34,169 bases of DNA. Origin: an uncultured Methylococcaceae bacterium. GTDB taxonomy: Bacteria; Pseudomonadota; Gammaproteobacteria; Methylococcales; Methylomonadaceae. The stretch is taken from assembly GCA_903934035.1 (NCBI GenBank), contig CAIZMK010000278.1:1-34169 (forward strand), read 5' to 3'. The notes beneath the pieces are model-generated. The model was not told the origin of the DNA, did not search any database, and was given only the letters and a program-made list of their open reading frames with translations. The translations under genes and the position numbers were made by a program. Shown here piece after piece: positions 1,607-9,806 of this stretch; position 1 is the stretch's first letter, and every line of letters starts with the position of its first letter.

Positions 1607-4264
1607 TCAAGCAATTTTATCTTTTAAAACTAATTTACTAATCGCTGGCAATACCACAAAGGTACACATCATGATCCAAAAGATACCGATAGTGATTACT
1701 AAGCCCATGCTGGCTATGCCTTCATGAGGTGAAAATGCCAAGCCAGCAAAACTTGATGCTGTGGTTAAGGCACCATAAAACATCGCTCTCGCGGTACTGG
1801 ATTGATAAATATTTTGGTCTTCTGATAAAGAATGATGTAATTTTTCAACCATGTGTATGCCGTTATCGACACCTAAACCTAATAACAACGGTAAAGCGAT
1901 AATGTTGGCATAATTGATGGGCGTATGCGTCAGCACGGTACTCGCCATCGTAAATAAACCCGCTAATATCAAGGGTGTCATCACCAAAAAGGTATCAGTA
2001 AAATTACGTCGTATGGCATACAACAACAAAGTAATGGTGATCAGCGCGATGATAATGGCTTTTTGAAAGGCCGCTATCACTTCTTTCATAGACTCCCAAT
2101 AAATAATCGGCAAATCTGTGGTTTCTGGTGCGACGGTTTGCACTTCATTAATAAACTCTTGCAAATTAGCGAGATCATTTAAATCTTTCTTAGGAAATAT
2201 TTGAATACGATACCAGCCTTCTTTACTCAACCAACGATCTTTAATATCTGCTGGCAAATCTGACAAAGTAACTTCCTTAGCGCCCATACCGACTAACAAT
2301 TCATTCATAGCATCAGGTAACGTACCTAGCAATGTCGTTTGCATTTTCTCTATAAACAAACGTCGACTGGGCTGTTGCCTTGTATCGAGCTCAATTAACA
2401 TATCCTGTAATTCTTTCTTAAAACAACCTAAGGCAGCCAACTCATGGGCATCCGTTTTTTCAAGTAAGCGTTGATCTATCGCTTTAATCAAGCGATTAAT
2501 ACCAGGAATCGGATCGTTATCCACTTTCAAGGTAGGAAATCCTTGAGCTTGTGCACCTAACATCAGTGCCATATCTTCTATAACGGCTAATTTGTCTTCT
2601 TGTTGTTCCGGTACAAAATCAAAGACACTGATGGTTTTATCAACACTAGCCAAGCCTAATAACTTTTGTTCCATATCCTTGGCTTTTTGGGCATCTTCTG
2701 CCAATACCGTCAAGGTCATAGGCGTGGTATCTGGATTTTTATTTAAGTTCTTAAAAGCAATGACTGATTCTGTATTAGGATCACGTAAATTAATAGGATT
2801 AAAGTCTGTTTGAACTTTAAAAACTAGGCCTATGGATAAAATAGTAAACAACAAAGTCGCTATAGCAATAGGCTTTGCATAATGCAGCGTGTGATTGGCC
2901 ATCTTTTCAGCTAAGGTAGCCAAAAATGGATGCGTTGCTAAGGGTTCTGATTTATCAGCGACAGGAATAAACCTTAGGAAAGCTGGCATGACGGTTAAAG
3001 TCACCACTAAACTAATAAACAAACTAGTACCAGCCAACAATCCTAGTTCAGACACGCCTCTATAATCAGTCGGTACAAAAGCAAAAAGCCCAATTGAAGT
3101 GGTCCCTGCGCATAGTAACAAAGAAGGCCCTGTCGATATTAAAGTACTGTGTATTGCTCTTTCACGATTCACATGATGTTGGATATTATCTTTATAACGC
3201 AGACAAAAATGGATGGCGTACTCTACGCCCAAACCTATATTCGATACGGCAAAAGCGACAGAAATCAAATTCAGTTCTTTAACAGCTAGCGCTGCAAAAG
3301 CACCGCAAAACACCATACCTAGAGCTAGGGTAAATAAGGTCGCTAAAGTAAATAAAATAGAACGATAAGCCACTAACAATATAACTAATACCAACACCAC
3401 TGAAAAAATACAGGCATTAAAAGTACCATTACTCATGCCTACAACTTCATCATCTTCTAAGCCCACTTCGCCAGTAATCCAAACCTTAACCTCTGGCAAG
3501 TCAGGCTGCTGAATTTCAGCAATGGCTTTACGCACTGATTCTATAGCGTGTTCAGCAGGTCGTATTTGTGAGTATTCAAACTTAGGTGAAAGCATAATAA
3601 AGCCTTTACCGCCATCTTTACCACTGAGCTTGTTGTCTGCGATCAAGCTTTCCCATGACAATAGATTATTTTCACCATTCATGCTTTTATGCAAAGCCAA
3701 AGCGACTTTATCGATCAAGGTGGCTAAATCAACTGGCAAGTCTTGCTTATCGGCTTTAGCACTCAAAGCATCTTCAAAGATAGAGAAAAAACCCGTTAGA
3801 TTAGGCTCTTGAGAGATACGCCCTATAAAAGGTTGGGCTTGAGATAGGTTATTAGAAACCGCTTGTAATTCGGTCGGTGCTAAATAGAGCAGACCATTTT
3901 TATGAAAGAATTCATTTTCACTAGGGATATATACCGTCTCAAAATTAGTCTTGTCGGCATTTAATAAACGACCTAAGCGTTTAGTCGCAGCTTTGGTTAA
4001 CTCAGGCGTGTCTGATTCAACAACCAATAACAAGGTATGTAAATCCTGAGCAAAGGCTTTTTCATAATGACGTCTATTTTGTTGAAAAGGCGCATTAGGG
4101 GCGACCATATCTTGAGTATCGGTATCGATACTTAAGTGACTACCTGCATATTGCCCTGCCAATACGGTTAATACTGCAACGATTATTAATACTGAAAAAG
4201 GATGCTTTAACACCCAAGCGCCCCAAATTGAAAATAGATTATTGCTTTTGTTCTTAAACGTCAT
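1607..4264 (-). CDS. hpnN: MMPL/RND family exporter, hopanoid-associated HpnN-like
   Basis: 885 aa with two RND/MMPL halves (GLGVEYAIHFCLRYKD; LLGLGVDNGIHMVEKLHH) and large soluble loops; N-terminus DTQDMVAPNAPFQQNRRHYEKAF resembles HpnN. Confidence 0.7.
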   Translation of the reverse strand: MTFKNKSNNLFSIWGAWVLKHPFSVLIIVAVLTVLAGQYAGSHLSIDTDTQDMVAPNAPFQQNRRHYEKAFAQDLHTLLLVVESDTPELTKAATKRLGRLLNADKTNFETVYIPSENEFFHKNGLLYLAPTELQAVSNNLSQAQPFIGRISQEPNLTGFFSIFEDALSAKADKQDLPVDLATLIDKVALALHKSMNGENNLLSWESLIADNKLSGKDGGKGFIMLSPKFEYSQIRPAEHAIESVRKAIAEIQQPDLPEVKVWITGEVGLEDDEVVGMSNGTFNACIFSVVLVLVILLVAYRSILFTLATLFTLALGMVFCGAFAALAVKELNLISVAFAVSNIGLGVEYAIHFCLRYKDNIQHHVNRERAIHSTLISTGPSLLLCAGTTSIGLFAFVPTDYRGVSELGLLAGTSLFISLVVTLTVMPAFLRFIPVADKSEPLATHPFLATLAEKMANHTLHYAKPIAIATLLFTILSIGLVFKVQTDFNPINLRDPNTESVIAFKNLNKNPDTTPMTLTVLAEDAQKAKDMEQKLLGLASVDKTISVFDFVPEQQEDKLAVIEDMALMLGAQAQGFPTLKVDNDPIPGINRLIKAIDQRLLEKTDAHELAALGCFKKELQDMLIELDTRQQPSRRLFIEKMQTTLLGTLPDAMNELLVGMGAKEVTLSDLPADIKDRWLSKEGWYRIQIFPKKDLNDLANLQEFINEVQTVAPETTDLPIIYWESMKEVIAAFQKAIIIALITITLLLYAIRRNFTDTFLVMTPLILAGLFTMASTVLTHTPINYANIIALPLLLGLGVDNGIHMVEKLHHSLSEDQNIYQSSTARAMFYGALTTASSFAGLAFSPHEGIASMGLVITIGIFWIMMCTFVVLPAISKLVLKDKIA

Positions 4265-4573: not shown

Positions 4574-5614
4574 TCATTCAATAGTAATTTTATCTAAAGT
4601 ATTCAGCGCATCACTTTTAGATTCGATAAGTTCAGAGCCCTGCTGTTGAATAAATAAAGCAGGGATATGAGCGACATTAGCGGCTTGCAGACCTTCTTTT
4701 TGACCCAAACACAATAAAGCGGTATCCCAAGCATCAGCAATAGTAGGGTCTTCATGAATAACGGTGACTGATACTAAGTCATGAGTAATTGGCCGGCCAT
4801 TACGTGCATCTAAGATGTGGCTATAACGCTGACCTTGATAATCAAAATAATGATTATAAGTACCGGAAGTCATCACCGCCATCTGGGACTCCTTAGGCAT
4901 GGTGATTCTTTTTTGCATGTGCATATCACCAGGCAAGGGTCTTTCTAAGGCGATACGCCAAGCTTGCTGATCAGGTTTATAACCCCGAGTCTGCAATTCA
5001 CCACCAATTTCCACTAAATAATCAGTAATGCCCTGCTCTTCTAATACTTGACTAATTTTACCGACGCTATAGCCTTGGGCAATAGATGATAAATCGACTT
5101 TTAAATCTGCTTGCTGCTTGCGTAAATGACTATCATCAATGATATCGAGTTTCGCCATACCAATACGCGCCTGCAACTTTTGTATCGATGCTTCGTCAGG
5201 CATAGCAGGAGCCTCACCACGAAAACCCCATAAATCAAACAGCGGCTTCATGGTTAAATCGTAACAACCTTTAGATGCTACAGAGACTGTTTGAGCGATA
5301 CGAACCAGCTTTACAATTTCAGCCCCCACTTCCTGGCTATCTGTATTTTCAGTGCTATTAAAGACTTCAATAACTGAGTCTGGACGATAGTTTGAAAGGG
5401 CTTTATCAATGACATCTAGTTCATTTTTAACAGCACTGGCAACTGCTGCGTTATCTATCGAAGTTTTTGACCAATAACTGATATGATAAGTCGTACCTTG
5501 AGCCGCGCCTTCAAGCTTTTGTATACTTGGACCTGAACAAGCGATCAGTTGGCTAAATATAAAAAAGACAGCTAGTACTTTTAATAATGGGGAATTGTTC
5601 TGAGTAGATTTCAT
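4574..5614 (-). CDS. apbE: FAD:protein FMN transferase, ApbE family lipoprotein
   Basis: Lipobox-like FSQLIACSG, GTTYHISYW, DLSSIAQGYSVGKI, MTSGTYNHYF and SHILDARNGRPI motifs; ORF begins at 5650 but MKSTQNNS... is the likelier start. Confidence 0.85.
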   Translation of the reverse strand: MKSTQNNSPLLKVLAVFFIFSQLIACSGPSIQKLEGAAQGTTYHISYWSKTSIDNAAVASAVKNELDVIDKALSNYRPDSVIEVFNSTENTDSQEVGAEIVKLVRIAQTVSVASKGCYDLTMKPLFDLWGFRGEAPAMPDEASIQKLQARIGMAKLDIIDDSHLRKQQADLKVDLSSIAQGYSVGKISQVLEEQGITDYLVEIGGELQTRGYKPDQQAWRIALERPLPGDMHMQKRITMPKESQMAVMTSGTYNHYFDYQGQRYSHILDARNGRPITHDLVSVTVIHEDPTIADAWDTALLCLGQKEGLQAANVAHIPALFIQQQGSELIESKSDALNTLDKITIE

Positions 5615-5841
5615 AATACTTCTGGTGGTTATGTGTTGATTCATTATCATCGCTAGCAGTTACTATATTATTACGAGATGAGTTTTCTTAAGTTTAACCA
5701 CATCAATAAACTGGGTTAATATCTGATTCATAGCAGTTATCGAAGGCTATGCACTCAACAAAGCGACTAAGAAAGCGGTTATACCCAACATTATAAAGGT
5801 ATTGTGGTTTGATTTCTAAAAATGAAACTACCCTAATAACT

Positions 5842-6077: not shown

Positions 6078-9000
6078 ATGATGAATAATGTTTTAGTTAA
6101 AAAGATAGGCAATTTAATTCCTTACACTTTACTAACAGGTCTTTTATTGTTGAGTTATAAGGTACTTAATGAGCTATTGATACCACTGACCTGGGCCATC
6201 ATTATTGCTTATGTAATGTGGCCTGCTTACCAAAGGTTAAGGCATCAACTTAATAATAGAAATACCTTAAGTGCTAGTGTAATGACAGGCCTAATAACTA
6301 TCGTCATTTCGTTAAGCCTCTACTGCTTAGGTTCCTTATTACAAAATGAAACTAAAATTGCTTACCAAAGCCTATCAATTAACTTTACTAACAATGCCTA
6401 TCACCTACCGAAACCTATAAGCCAAATTCCATGGCTAGGGCGACAGTTACAAGATCTTATTGATCAACTCATTGATAACCAAGCTGAAATCAGCGACCAA
6501 CTCACTAACTGGGTAGGACAATGGCTGGGAGAATTTACGCAATTGCTTGGCAGTATTGGTCGAAATATCATGAAGTTGGGTGTTATTTTAGTCACGGTAT
6601 TTTTTTGTTTTCGAGATGGACTTAATATTATTAAGCAATTGCAGCAAGGCATCATTAGTTTTTTAGGCTCATATCAACATGTTTACCTAGAAACTGCTGG
6701 AGCCACTACTCGCGCAGTAGTTTACGGCCTAGTTCTTGCAGCACTTAGTCAAGGTTTACTAGCAGGAATAGGTTATGCGGTAGCGGGTATCAAGGCACCC
6801 TTATTATTTGGACTGATAACAGCCTTCCTGGCCATTATTCCTATGGGAGCGACATTGATATGGCTGCCTTTAAGCATAATACTAATCGTCTCTAATCAAT
6901 TCTGGTCTGGTATTGGTTTATTACTTTGGGGATTTCTAGCTGTTAGCACCATAGACAATGTGGTGCGTCCATTAGTTATTAGCGGTGCTGGTCGAGTACC
7001 TTTCCCCATCGTATTATTCGGCGTGCTTGGAGGCTTATCAACTTTCGGAGCTGTTGGGCTATTTTTAGGGCCAGTGATTCTGGCAGTACTGCTCTCTGTT
7101 TGGCAAACTTGGCTAAAACTACAGCAAATAGAATTATCTGAACATGAATACTCTCAACCCATCTGGCACACACTTTCGACAGAAAGGGTCATTGCCGAAT
7201 TAGATTCAGATTATGGTCTGGGTTTAAGTACAGAAGAGGCGCAAAAACGCTTAAATCAAAGTGGAGCTAATAGTCTTACTGAAATAGCTCAGCGCTCCGC
7301 ATTGCATTTATTACTATCCCAATTCAAAGGTGTCCTTATTCTTGTATTGTTGGCAGCGGCCATATTAGCAACCACTATAGGTGACTTAAAAGACGGTCTT
7401 GTGATTTTAGTCGTTGTCATTATTAACGCTTTGCTGGGATTTTATCAGGAATTTCAAGCTGAAAAGTCTTTGTGCGCTCTAAAAAAAATGCTGCCTTTAC
7501 AAGCGATAGTTCGTCGTAATGGACAAGCAATCGAATTATTAGCTGAGCAATTAGTAGTTGGAGATATTGTTATCCTCGAAGCGGGTAGAAAAATACCTGC
7601 GGATGGCCGCATCCTGTTCGCACAAGCCTTAGAGGTTGATGAATCGTCGTTGACAGGCGAATCAGCGCCTATTACCAAACAAGACATGATTCTTGAACCA
7701 TCTTTAGTACTCGTAGAACGATGCAACATGCTTTATATGAACAACTCAGTCACTCATGGGCATGGAGAAATGATAGTCACAGCCACAGGGATGAATACTG
7801 AAATAGGCAAGCTTGCCAACTTACTAACGCAAAGCCAAGAGGTAGCCACACCATTACAATTGCAGTTAGATAATCTAGGAAAACGCATCGCTGTGTGTGC
7901 GCTAGCTATAATTGTCCTATTATTTTTTAGTGCATTAATGCGTGGAGAAGCACTGATTATTAATGCCATCAATACTATTGCCCTAGCCGTAGCTGCGATA
8001 CCCGAAGGATTACCAGCTGTTGTAACAGTCACACTGGCCTTAGGTATGCACCGCATGGCTAGACAACGTGCCATCGTTAAACGATTAGCGTCTGTTGAAA
8101 CTCTAGGCTGTACGACCGTTATCTGTAGCGACAAGACCGGCACTTTAACGGTTAACCAAATGACAGTACGTAGCTTTTTTTATAATAATCAGCACTATAA
8201 CGTCAGTGGAAAGGGTTACGAGCTCATCGGTAAAATTTCACCTGATTGTTCAGTAGAACATTTTTCTAAGCTACTGATACCGCTAGTGCTCTGTAACAAC
8301 AGCCACATACAAAATGATCAATTCATAGGCGATCCCATGGAAGCCGCCTTGTTGGTACTTGCAGCTAAAGGCGGTATCGACCAAAAACAAGTAACTGATC
8401 AATTACCCAGACTCGCAGAAATTCCTTTTGATGCTAAACATAAATTCATGGCCACCTTTCATCAGAAAAATGATGAAATCAAAGTTTTTATTAAAGGCGC
8501 ACCCGAAGTAATACTCAAACTTTGTCAAAACTCTATCAATGTCCATCAGGACGTTAATAAAGCTTTTCTGGCTCAAAATGAACTTATCGCTAGTGCCGGT
8601 TATCGAGTTCTCGGCCTCGCAGAAACGACATTGCCCTCTGCTACGTTTAAAATAGATAGCGATTTATTTAGTTATATTAATAATCTTAACTTTATCGCTT
8701 TAATAGGTCTAATGGATCCACCCAGAACTGAAGTAAAAGCAGCAATCAAGCAATGTCAGCAAGCAGGTATTGCCGTCAAAATGATTACTGGCGATCAAAA
8801 AACAACGGCCGTAGCGATAGCAAAAGAATTGGGTTTAATAGGCAATGTCATTGAGGGTGATACGCTCGCTGGTCTTGCTGATGACGCATTATCTGCATGT
8901 ATTAATAGTATAGATGTGTTCGCTCGCATCGCACCTGAACAGAAAGTACGTATTATAAAAGCACTAAAAGCAAATCATCATATCGTTGCTATGACAGGTG

Positions 9001-9806
9001 ACGGCGTTAACGATGCGCCTGCCTTAAAAATAGCCGATATCGGCATTGCTATGGGCTTATCAGGTAGCAATGTCGCTCAGGATGCAGCCACGATCATATT
9101 AACGGATGATAATTTCACAACTATCGTCTTGGCCGTTAAAGAAGGCCGAAATGTTTATAGTAATATCGTTAAGTTTGTTCGATTTCAACTTTCAACTAAT
9201 ATCGGAGCAATCCTCACAGTCGCTTTAGCACCTTTATTGGGACTGCCTATCCCCTTTACTGCAATACAACTACTTTGGATTAACATTATCATGGATGGTC
9301 CACCTGCCCTTTCTCTGGGCGTAGACCCCGCACAAAAAGAGAGCATGTTGGAAGCTCCCCGAAATCATAATGCACGCATACTTTCTTGGCCGCGCTTAAC
9401 TAATTTATTGAGCTATGGAATGGTCATGGCGATAGGAACTTTGGGCGTTTTAAACTATGGTTTACAAACGAGTGATCATCTTCATGCTACATCTCTCGCC
9501 TTTACTACCTTTGTATTGTTTCAAATCTTTAATGCTTTTAATGCACGATCTGAAAAAAGCAGCATCTTTAATCGAGACCTCTTTGCCAATAAAATACTCT
9601 GCTTATCAATTAGTTTAGTAGTCCTATTACAAATCGTGGTTATACATTGGCTGCCCGCACAAATACTGTTTCATACCACAGCACTGTCAATGAGCGATTG
9701 GTTAATGGCCTTTGCAGTTGCAGCATCTATTGTGTTTTTTGAGGAATTACGTAAATCAATAAAGCCTGCACGCTCAAAATTAAAATTAAACAACACTATA
9801 CTTTGA
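6078..9806 (+). CDS. Fusion protein: N-terminal AI-2E/PerM-type permease plus C-terminal type IIA (PMR1/SPCA-like, Ca2+/Mn2+) P-type ATPase
   Basis: Residues ~1-350 multi-TM AI-2E family type (GLVLAALSQGLLAGIGYAVAGIKAPLLFGLITAFLAIIPMGA, DNVVRPLVISG); residues ~365-1242 full P-type ATPase (SLTGESAP, IPEGLPAVVTVTLALG, CSDKTGTLT, MTGDGVNDAPALK, QLLWINIIMDGPPALSLGVDP). Confidence 0.9.
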   Translation: MMNNVLVKKIGNLIPYTLLTGLLLLSYKVLNELLIPLTWAIIIAYVMWPAYQRLRHQLNNRNTLSASVMTGLITIVISLSLYCLGSLLQNETKIAYQSLSINFTNNAYHLPKPISQIPWLGRQLQDLIDQLIDNQAEISDQLTNWVGQWLGEFTQLLGSIGRNIMKLGVILVTVFFCFRDGLNIIKQLQQGIISFLGSYQHVYLETAGATTRAVVYGLVLAALSQGLLAGIGYAVAGIKAPLLFGLITAFLAIIPMGATLIWLPLSIILIVSNQFWSGIGLLLWGFLAVSTIDNVVRPLVISGAGRVPFPIVLFGVLGGLSTFGAVGLFLGPVILAVLLSVWQTWLKLQQIELSEHEYSQPIWHTLSTERVIAELDSDYGLGLSTEEAQKRLNQSGANSLTEIAQRSALHLLLSQFKGVLILVLLAAAILATTIGDLKDGLVILVVVIINALLGFYQEFQAEKSLCALKKMLPLQAIVRRNGQAIELLAEQLVVGDIVILEAGRKIPADGRILFAQALEVDESSLTGESAPITKQDMILEPSLVLVERCNMLYMNNSVTHGHGEMIVTATGMNTEIGKLANLLTQSQEVATPLQLQLDNLGKRIAVCALAIIVLLFFSALMRGEALIINAINTIALAVAAIPEGLPAVVTVTLALGMHRMARQRAIVKRLASVETLGCTTVICSDKTGTLTVNQMTVRSFFYNNQHYNVSGKGYELIGKISPDCSVEHFSKLLIPLVLCNNSHIQNDQFIGDPMEAALLVLAAKGGIDQKQVTDQLPRLAEIPFDAKHKFMATFHQKNDEIKVFIKGAPEVILKLCQNSINVHQDVNKAFLAQNELIASAGYRVLGLAETTLPSATFKIDSDLFSYINNLNFIALIGLMDPPRTEVKAAIKQCQQAGIAVKMITGDQKTTAVAIAKELGLIGNVIEGDTLAGLADDALSACINSIDVFARIAPEQKVRIIKALKANHHIVAMTGDGVNDAPALKIADIGIAMGLSGSNVAQDAATIILTDDNFTTIVLAVKEGRNVYSNIVKFVRFQLSTNIGAILTVALAPLLGLPIPFTAIQLLWINIIMDGPPALSLGVDPAQKESMLEAPRNHNARILSWPRLTNLLSYGMVMAIGTLGVLNYGLQTSDHLHATSLAFTTFVLFQIFNAFNARSEKSSIFNRDLFANKILCLSISLVVLLQIVVIHWLPAQILFHTTALSMSDWLMAFAVAASIVFFEELRKSIKPARSKLKLNNTIL

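Follow-up and report, generated by a model that had tools for sequence, protein, structure and literature searches.

Does a reading frame that begins as a membrane permease and ends as an ion pump encode a genuine two-part protein, and what would its two parts do for each other? The question is raised by a gene in a 34,169-nt stretch of methanotroph DNA (hereafter, the window), which a first-pass annotation had read as a full AI-2E permease joined in frame to a full PMR1/SPCA-like ATPase.

One reading frame with two transporter families

The gene occupies positions 6078-9806 of the plus strand, starts with ATG and encodes 1242 amino acids without interruption. A Pfam search of this protein found the AI-2E_transport domain and all segments of a P-type ATPase in one chain, in agreement with the first-pass annotation, which had looked to PF01594 together with E1-E2_ATPase and Cation_ATPase_C as the diagnostic combination. 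The TqsA/YdiK-like AI-2E domain spans residues 18-345 (6129-7112), with a PF01594 score of 138.5 bits against a gathering score of 34.3 (E = 3.8e-40) and coverage of profile positions 6-326 of 327. A complete type IIA ATPase of the SPCA/PMR1 kind follows at residues 363-1227 (7164-9758), comprising Cation_ATPase_N (363-430), E1-E2_ATPase (471-663, E = 1.5e-51), Hydrolase (681-987) and Cation_ATPase_C (1057-1227, E = 1.5e-48).

A linker of 17 residues (346-362; 7113-7163) separates the last AI-2E helix, whose end is near residue 345, from the ATPase N-domain, which starts at residue 363. The earlier observation that the linker lacks an in-frame ATG, GTG or TTG holds: none occurs between GTG 7074, which falls within the final AI-2E helix, and TTG 7302, which encodes residue 409 and is already within the ATPase. 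In 25 of 35 distinct fused relatives some in-frame GTG, TTG or ATG is found near the linker, at no conserved position. We therefore rejected an internal second start. All 35 share the same boundary, in which ..GPVILAVLLSVWQAWLKLQQ is followed by the linker and then by WHTLS.., with linker length and sequence varying between them. Rough pairwise dN/dS estimates are low for the two halves (0.07-0.09 and 0.12-0.18) and higher for the linker than for either of them (0.26-0.38), and by this measure constraint on the AI-2E half is no weaker than on the pump. As frame, boundary and purifying selection are conserved among relatives to either side of the linker, the fusion is real and far beyond chance. 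We found no published account of an AI-2E/P-type ATPase fusion in the open-access literature, where the earlier remark that the architecture lacked a known description thus stands; it is built from known parts and is new as far as our literature search reached.

Properties of the pump and permease halves

The best PDB relative of the C-terminal half is human SPCA1 (E = 2.1e-178). An AlphaFold2 monomer model covering 1200 residues of the fusion (pLDDT 73) likewise gave SPCA1 as its best Foldseek match and matched SPCA and SERCA folds. Four plus-strand motifs mark the pump. The TM4 ion-site motif AVAAIPEGLP (7986-8015) shows little or no variation among 31 fused and nine solo ATPases, and the phosphorylation motif DKTGT with Asp685, located at 8130-8144 just as first annotated, is invariant. 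The hinge motif TGDGVNDAPA (8994-9023) was placed by alignment of fused and solo ATPases, and the TM6 ion-site motif WINIIMDGPPALSLGVDP (9276-9329), which holds Asn1069 and Asp1073, by alignment to SPCA1 and by conservation. Single conservative changes aside, TGES, DKTGT, KGAP, MITGD and TGDGVND are invariant in the 31 fused proteins. The residues of Ca2+ site II (V638, A639, I641, E643, N1069 and D1073) align with those of SPCA1, and the catalytic motifs and site-II residues (V/A/I/E in TM4, N/D in TM6) are intact in 30-31 of the 31. Given the conservation of these catalytic residues and of the single, SPCA-type Ca2+ site, the C-terminal half should, by its family, be an active outward pump.

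The likeness to the secretory-pathway Ca2+/Mn2+-ATPase SPCA1/PMR1 (PDB 8iwp, 7yag) spans the whole ATPase half and includes the catalytic motifs, AAIPEGLP in TM4 and WINIIMDGPPA in TM6. The fused protein differs in its N-terminal permease, in an Asn in TM5 where SPCA1 has Ser, and at the position of Pmr1 Gln783, where it carries Leu1078. LMCA1 of Listeria (lmo0841; PDB 6zhf, 9euq), a bacterial single-chain type IIA Ca2+-ATPase, is a further relative (E = 4.4e-159), more distant than SPCA1 and without a fused permease. Among NCBIfam models the top match is TIGR01522, the PMR1-type calcium ATPase, at 758.0 bits; this is below the equivalog cut-off of 798.3, as are the scores of solo and fused relatives, so that the ion must be regarded as uncertain. 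Gln783 in TM6 of Pmr1 has a role in Mn2+ selectivity (Mandal et al. 2000, as cited in PMC8890496). The corresponding residue is Leu or Met in 40 of 40 aligned ATPases (31 fused, nine solo). Mn2+ would thus be a less likely substrate than Ca2+, so that Ca2+ is favored within the Ca2+/Mn2+ transport first proposed. Na+/Ca2+ antiporter genes adjoin solo relatives of the ATPase on plasmids, which fits calcium handling. The SPCA-like ATPases on large plasmids (L225, L228, L221, L223) often lie amid genes for universal stress proteins, Hsp20 or Na+/Ca2+ antiporters, an arrangement resembling a stress island.

The N-terminal half retains the residues conserved across the AI-2E family. Its best PDB relative is E. 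coli YdiK (7ot9, E = 1.5e-21), and an AlphaFold2 model of this half (pLDDT 81) matched only TqsA (7nb6) and YdiK (7ot9) in the PDB at E ≤ 0.001, with moderate TM-scores of 0.43-0.68. TqsA and YdiK resemble it in fold and sequence, at a low identity of 18% in the Foldseek alignments, but are stand-alone proteins. The AI-2E family is widespread in bacteria and, to our knowledge, few of its members have a known substrate.

The first-pass annotation had suggested Na+/H+ antiport for this half, and a relative within the AI-2E family, UPF0118 of Halobacillus andaensis, is indeed an Na+(Li+)/H+ antiporter (PMC5379678, PMC7221264). The signature of that antiporter group is E179-R182-K215-Q217-D251-R292-R293-E296-K298-S307 (PMC7221264). 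When Motifs C and D from the same source were aligned, the AI-2E half did not carry it: Ala252 stands at the D251 position, and DNVVRPL is found here in place of the RRTVEPK of the antiporter group. Thus R292, R293, E296, K298 and D251 are replaced by D, N, R, L and A; these D, N and R are invariant in all fused proteins and the A is present in 30 of 31. With its signature residues replaced and a fold that matches only TqsA/YdiK, the suggestion of antiport is unsupported.

The fusion also bears on membrane topology. Since the N-terminus of the pump is cytosolic, the C-terminus of the AI-2E half should face the cytosol. This conflicts with PhoA-based work that placed the UPF0118 C-terminus in the periplasm (PMC7221264), unless topologies differ within the family, and makes the fusion a natural topology reporter for the AI-2E half.

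Distribution, separate origins and decay of the fusion

The first-pass annotation had proposed counting the genomes that share the boundary. To judge from its nearest named relatives, the window itself comes from a Methylococcaceae methanotroph. A fused gene was found in 38 of 201 sampled Methylococcaceae genomes, joined at about the same place; these include genomes in one to three contigs, some of them in a single contig, and among them are Methylobacter tundripaludum SV96 and Methylovulum miyakonense HT12. Among the matches listed from 369 genomes sampled across the class, none outside the family was fused, and on plasmids we found only separate neighboring genes. In one fused gene (L027:4281 and L054:8733) an in-frame TGA interrupts the ATPase part, giving frames of 935 + 316 aa, through either a sequencing error or a broken gene. 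A contig assigned to a Geobacteraceae MAG (CAIYDX010000087.1), on which the gene is cut at 551 aa, is 96% identical to the fused gene and its neighbors and is probably mis-binned methanotroph DNA.

The fusion arose separately at least three times, because the halves of different fusions belong to different subfamilies. The L147 fusion combines an AI-2E half of the main subfamily (64%) with an ATPase of another subfamily (41%) that groups with outgroup ATPases, and the L100 and L150 fusions join a distant AI-2E half (27-29%) to an ATPase at 53%. The AI-2E and ATPase trees both require several changes of state; we claim only three fusions because these counts are inflated by rows cut at contig ends. 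Frames of 1201-1277 aa around ATPase matches of 41-43% were considered as extra fusions and rejected, as they have ordinary ATPase N-termini and no AI-2E domain.

In the window, an RND/MMPL-like exporter gene (1607-4264, minus strand) and a divergent ApbE-like flavin transferase gene (4574-5650, minus strand), both named from their own sequences, precede the fused gene. The two are kept at the AI-2E locus in many genomes of the family, the ApbE-like gene beside both fused and unfused AI-2E genes, and genera with separate halves (L183, L184, L186) have their AI-2E gene at this RND-ApbE locus, as the window does. Within Methylobacter, synteny links the fused locus of M. tundripaludum (L041) to two loci (L165, L166) in which a CAG codon of the linker has become TAG. 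Behind this stop, the start of a decayed ATPase stays in frame in L165 (214-446), and only a short ATPase scar persists in L166 (9035-9193). The AI-2E frame is intact in both and has remained under purifying selection after the decay of the ATPase. A fused ancestor has here acquired a linker stop that left an intact AI-2E gene and a dying ATPase pseudogene, in effect a natural knock-out of one half. The Methylobacter group thus offers, for comparison, close relatives in which one locus is fused, split or lacking the pump.

The halves also occur as separate genes. AI-2E precedes the ATPase by 43-97 nt in L071 and L089, and the order is reversed, with a gap of 35 nt, in L072 and L167; a decayed version of the latter order is seen at L164:9190-9541, where the C-terminal remnant of an ATPase precedes a close AI-2E gene that is itself intact. 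On Burkholderia and Rhizobium plasmids separate halves overlap by 4 nt, in both orders. In the haloarchaeon Haloplanus unfused genes are adjacent, and in Paraburkholderia aromaticivorans (L223) they are adjacent and divergent, and an ApbE gene flanks the ATPase on its far side. These adjoining pairs in Burkholderiales, Rhizobium and a haloarchaeon suggest a functional link. Within the family, co-occurrence of the unfused halves gave counts of 27/13/33/94 (p = 3.5e-6, not corrected for phylogeny). Linkage between unfused close AI-2E genes and type II ATPases is weak in general and is not claimed here as strong: four of 40 had such an ATPase within 3 kb, compared with one of 20 distant paralogues, and the other 36 were not near one. 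Ten further plasmid regions around SPCA-like ATPases were examined, and the nine annotated ones contained no AI-2E neighbor. A further AI-2E/P-type pairing occurs at L201:2557-6255, where a distant AI-2E paralogue follows a different P-type ATPase (31% identity, 879 aa) by 21 nt. Finally, solo ATPases without a close AI-2E gene are present in 13 genomes of the family, and solo ATPases of the same clade bear a single extra N-terminal helix where AI-2E sits in the fusions.

Proposed working of the fused protein

The reading we favor, and hold with reasonable though not high confidence, is that the polypeptide comprises two complete, separately working transporters, tethered in one place at a fixed ratio. 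The pump half would use ATP, via Asp685, to carry a single divalent cation, most likely Ca2+, out of the cytosol into the periplasm, while the permease half, being of the TqsA/YdiK type, would probably pass a small organic or anionic solute. YdiK entry 7ot9 contains five chains; if the AI-2E half were likewise pentameric, one permease core would be encircled by as many as five pumps. In related genomes either half can persist without the other, and for this reason the halves probably work independently while tethered, rather than as one obligate machine.

An alternative that we consider unlikely, but worth serious attention, is that the AI-2E half serves the pump mainly as an additional membrane anchor at the N-terminus or as a platform for assembly, its joining to the pump being a tolerated accident of neighborhood with no coupling of transport. 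The lone N-terminal helix of the solo ATPases lies at the same place, the linker is variable and less constrained, and the fusions are, within our sampling, confined to one family, where they have also been lost again. However, a mere anchor would hardly keep its family-wide conserved residues under constraint at least equal to that of the pump, nor survive alone under selection once the pump is lost, and it sits poorly with at least three origins and with unfused pairs that recur in distant taxa. Another alternative is a coupled machine whose ATPase cycle would power or gate the AI-2E pathway; recurrent fusion and overlapping gene pairs speak for a tight link in function. A P-type ATPase works with a second membrane transport subunit in the KdpFABC potassium uptake complex, as it might in the fusion. 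The KdpFABC subunits, however, are separate and mutually dependent, with a fold unrelated to AI-2E, whereas AI-2E persists after loss of the ATPase and 13 family genomes hold solo ATPases; moreover, the two-domain model (pTM 0.53) gives no interface evidence and is used for no interface claim. We therefore regard a machine of the KdpB/KdpA kind as improbable. Its fullest form, five calcium-type pumps around an AI-2E pentamer with ATP-driven ion pumping that drives or gates AI-2E solute transport, seems to us just as doubtful; if true, it would make the AI-2E half a primary-active transporter and provide a second, unrelated example of a P-type ATPase that acts via a partner permease.

Much less probable still is the coupling of ATP-driven Ca2+/Mn2+ transport to an Na+/H+ antiporter, for which the UPF0118 precedent speaks (PMC7221264) and against which the replaced R292, R293, E296, K298 and D251 and the TqsA/YdiK-like fold and sequence weigh. 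That two genes were joined by an assembly error, a frameshift or read-through of a pseudogene is scarcely credible, and we rejected it. In some relatives the halves are indeed separate, or a stop interrupts the linker, and to this extent the objection anticipated by the first-pass annotation was sound; the error itself is excluded by the dozens of fused genomes, several of them in a single contig and SV96 and HT12 among them, and by the low dN/dS on both sides of the junction.

The architecture is therefore conserved and repeatedly evolved in methanotrophs, and the benefit of joining may lie in, for example, co-localization of the tethered transporters. Fusion to an SPCA-like pump, with at least three origins, ties one branch of the AI-2E family to the handling of a divalent cation, probably calcium. 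Gene pairs in distant taxa mirror the fusion, and together they provide a testable lead on AI-2E function.
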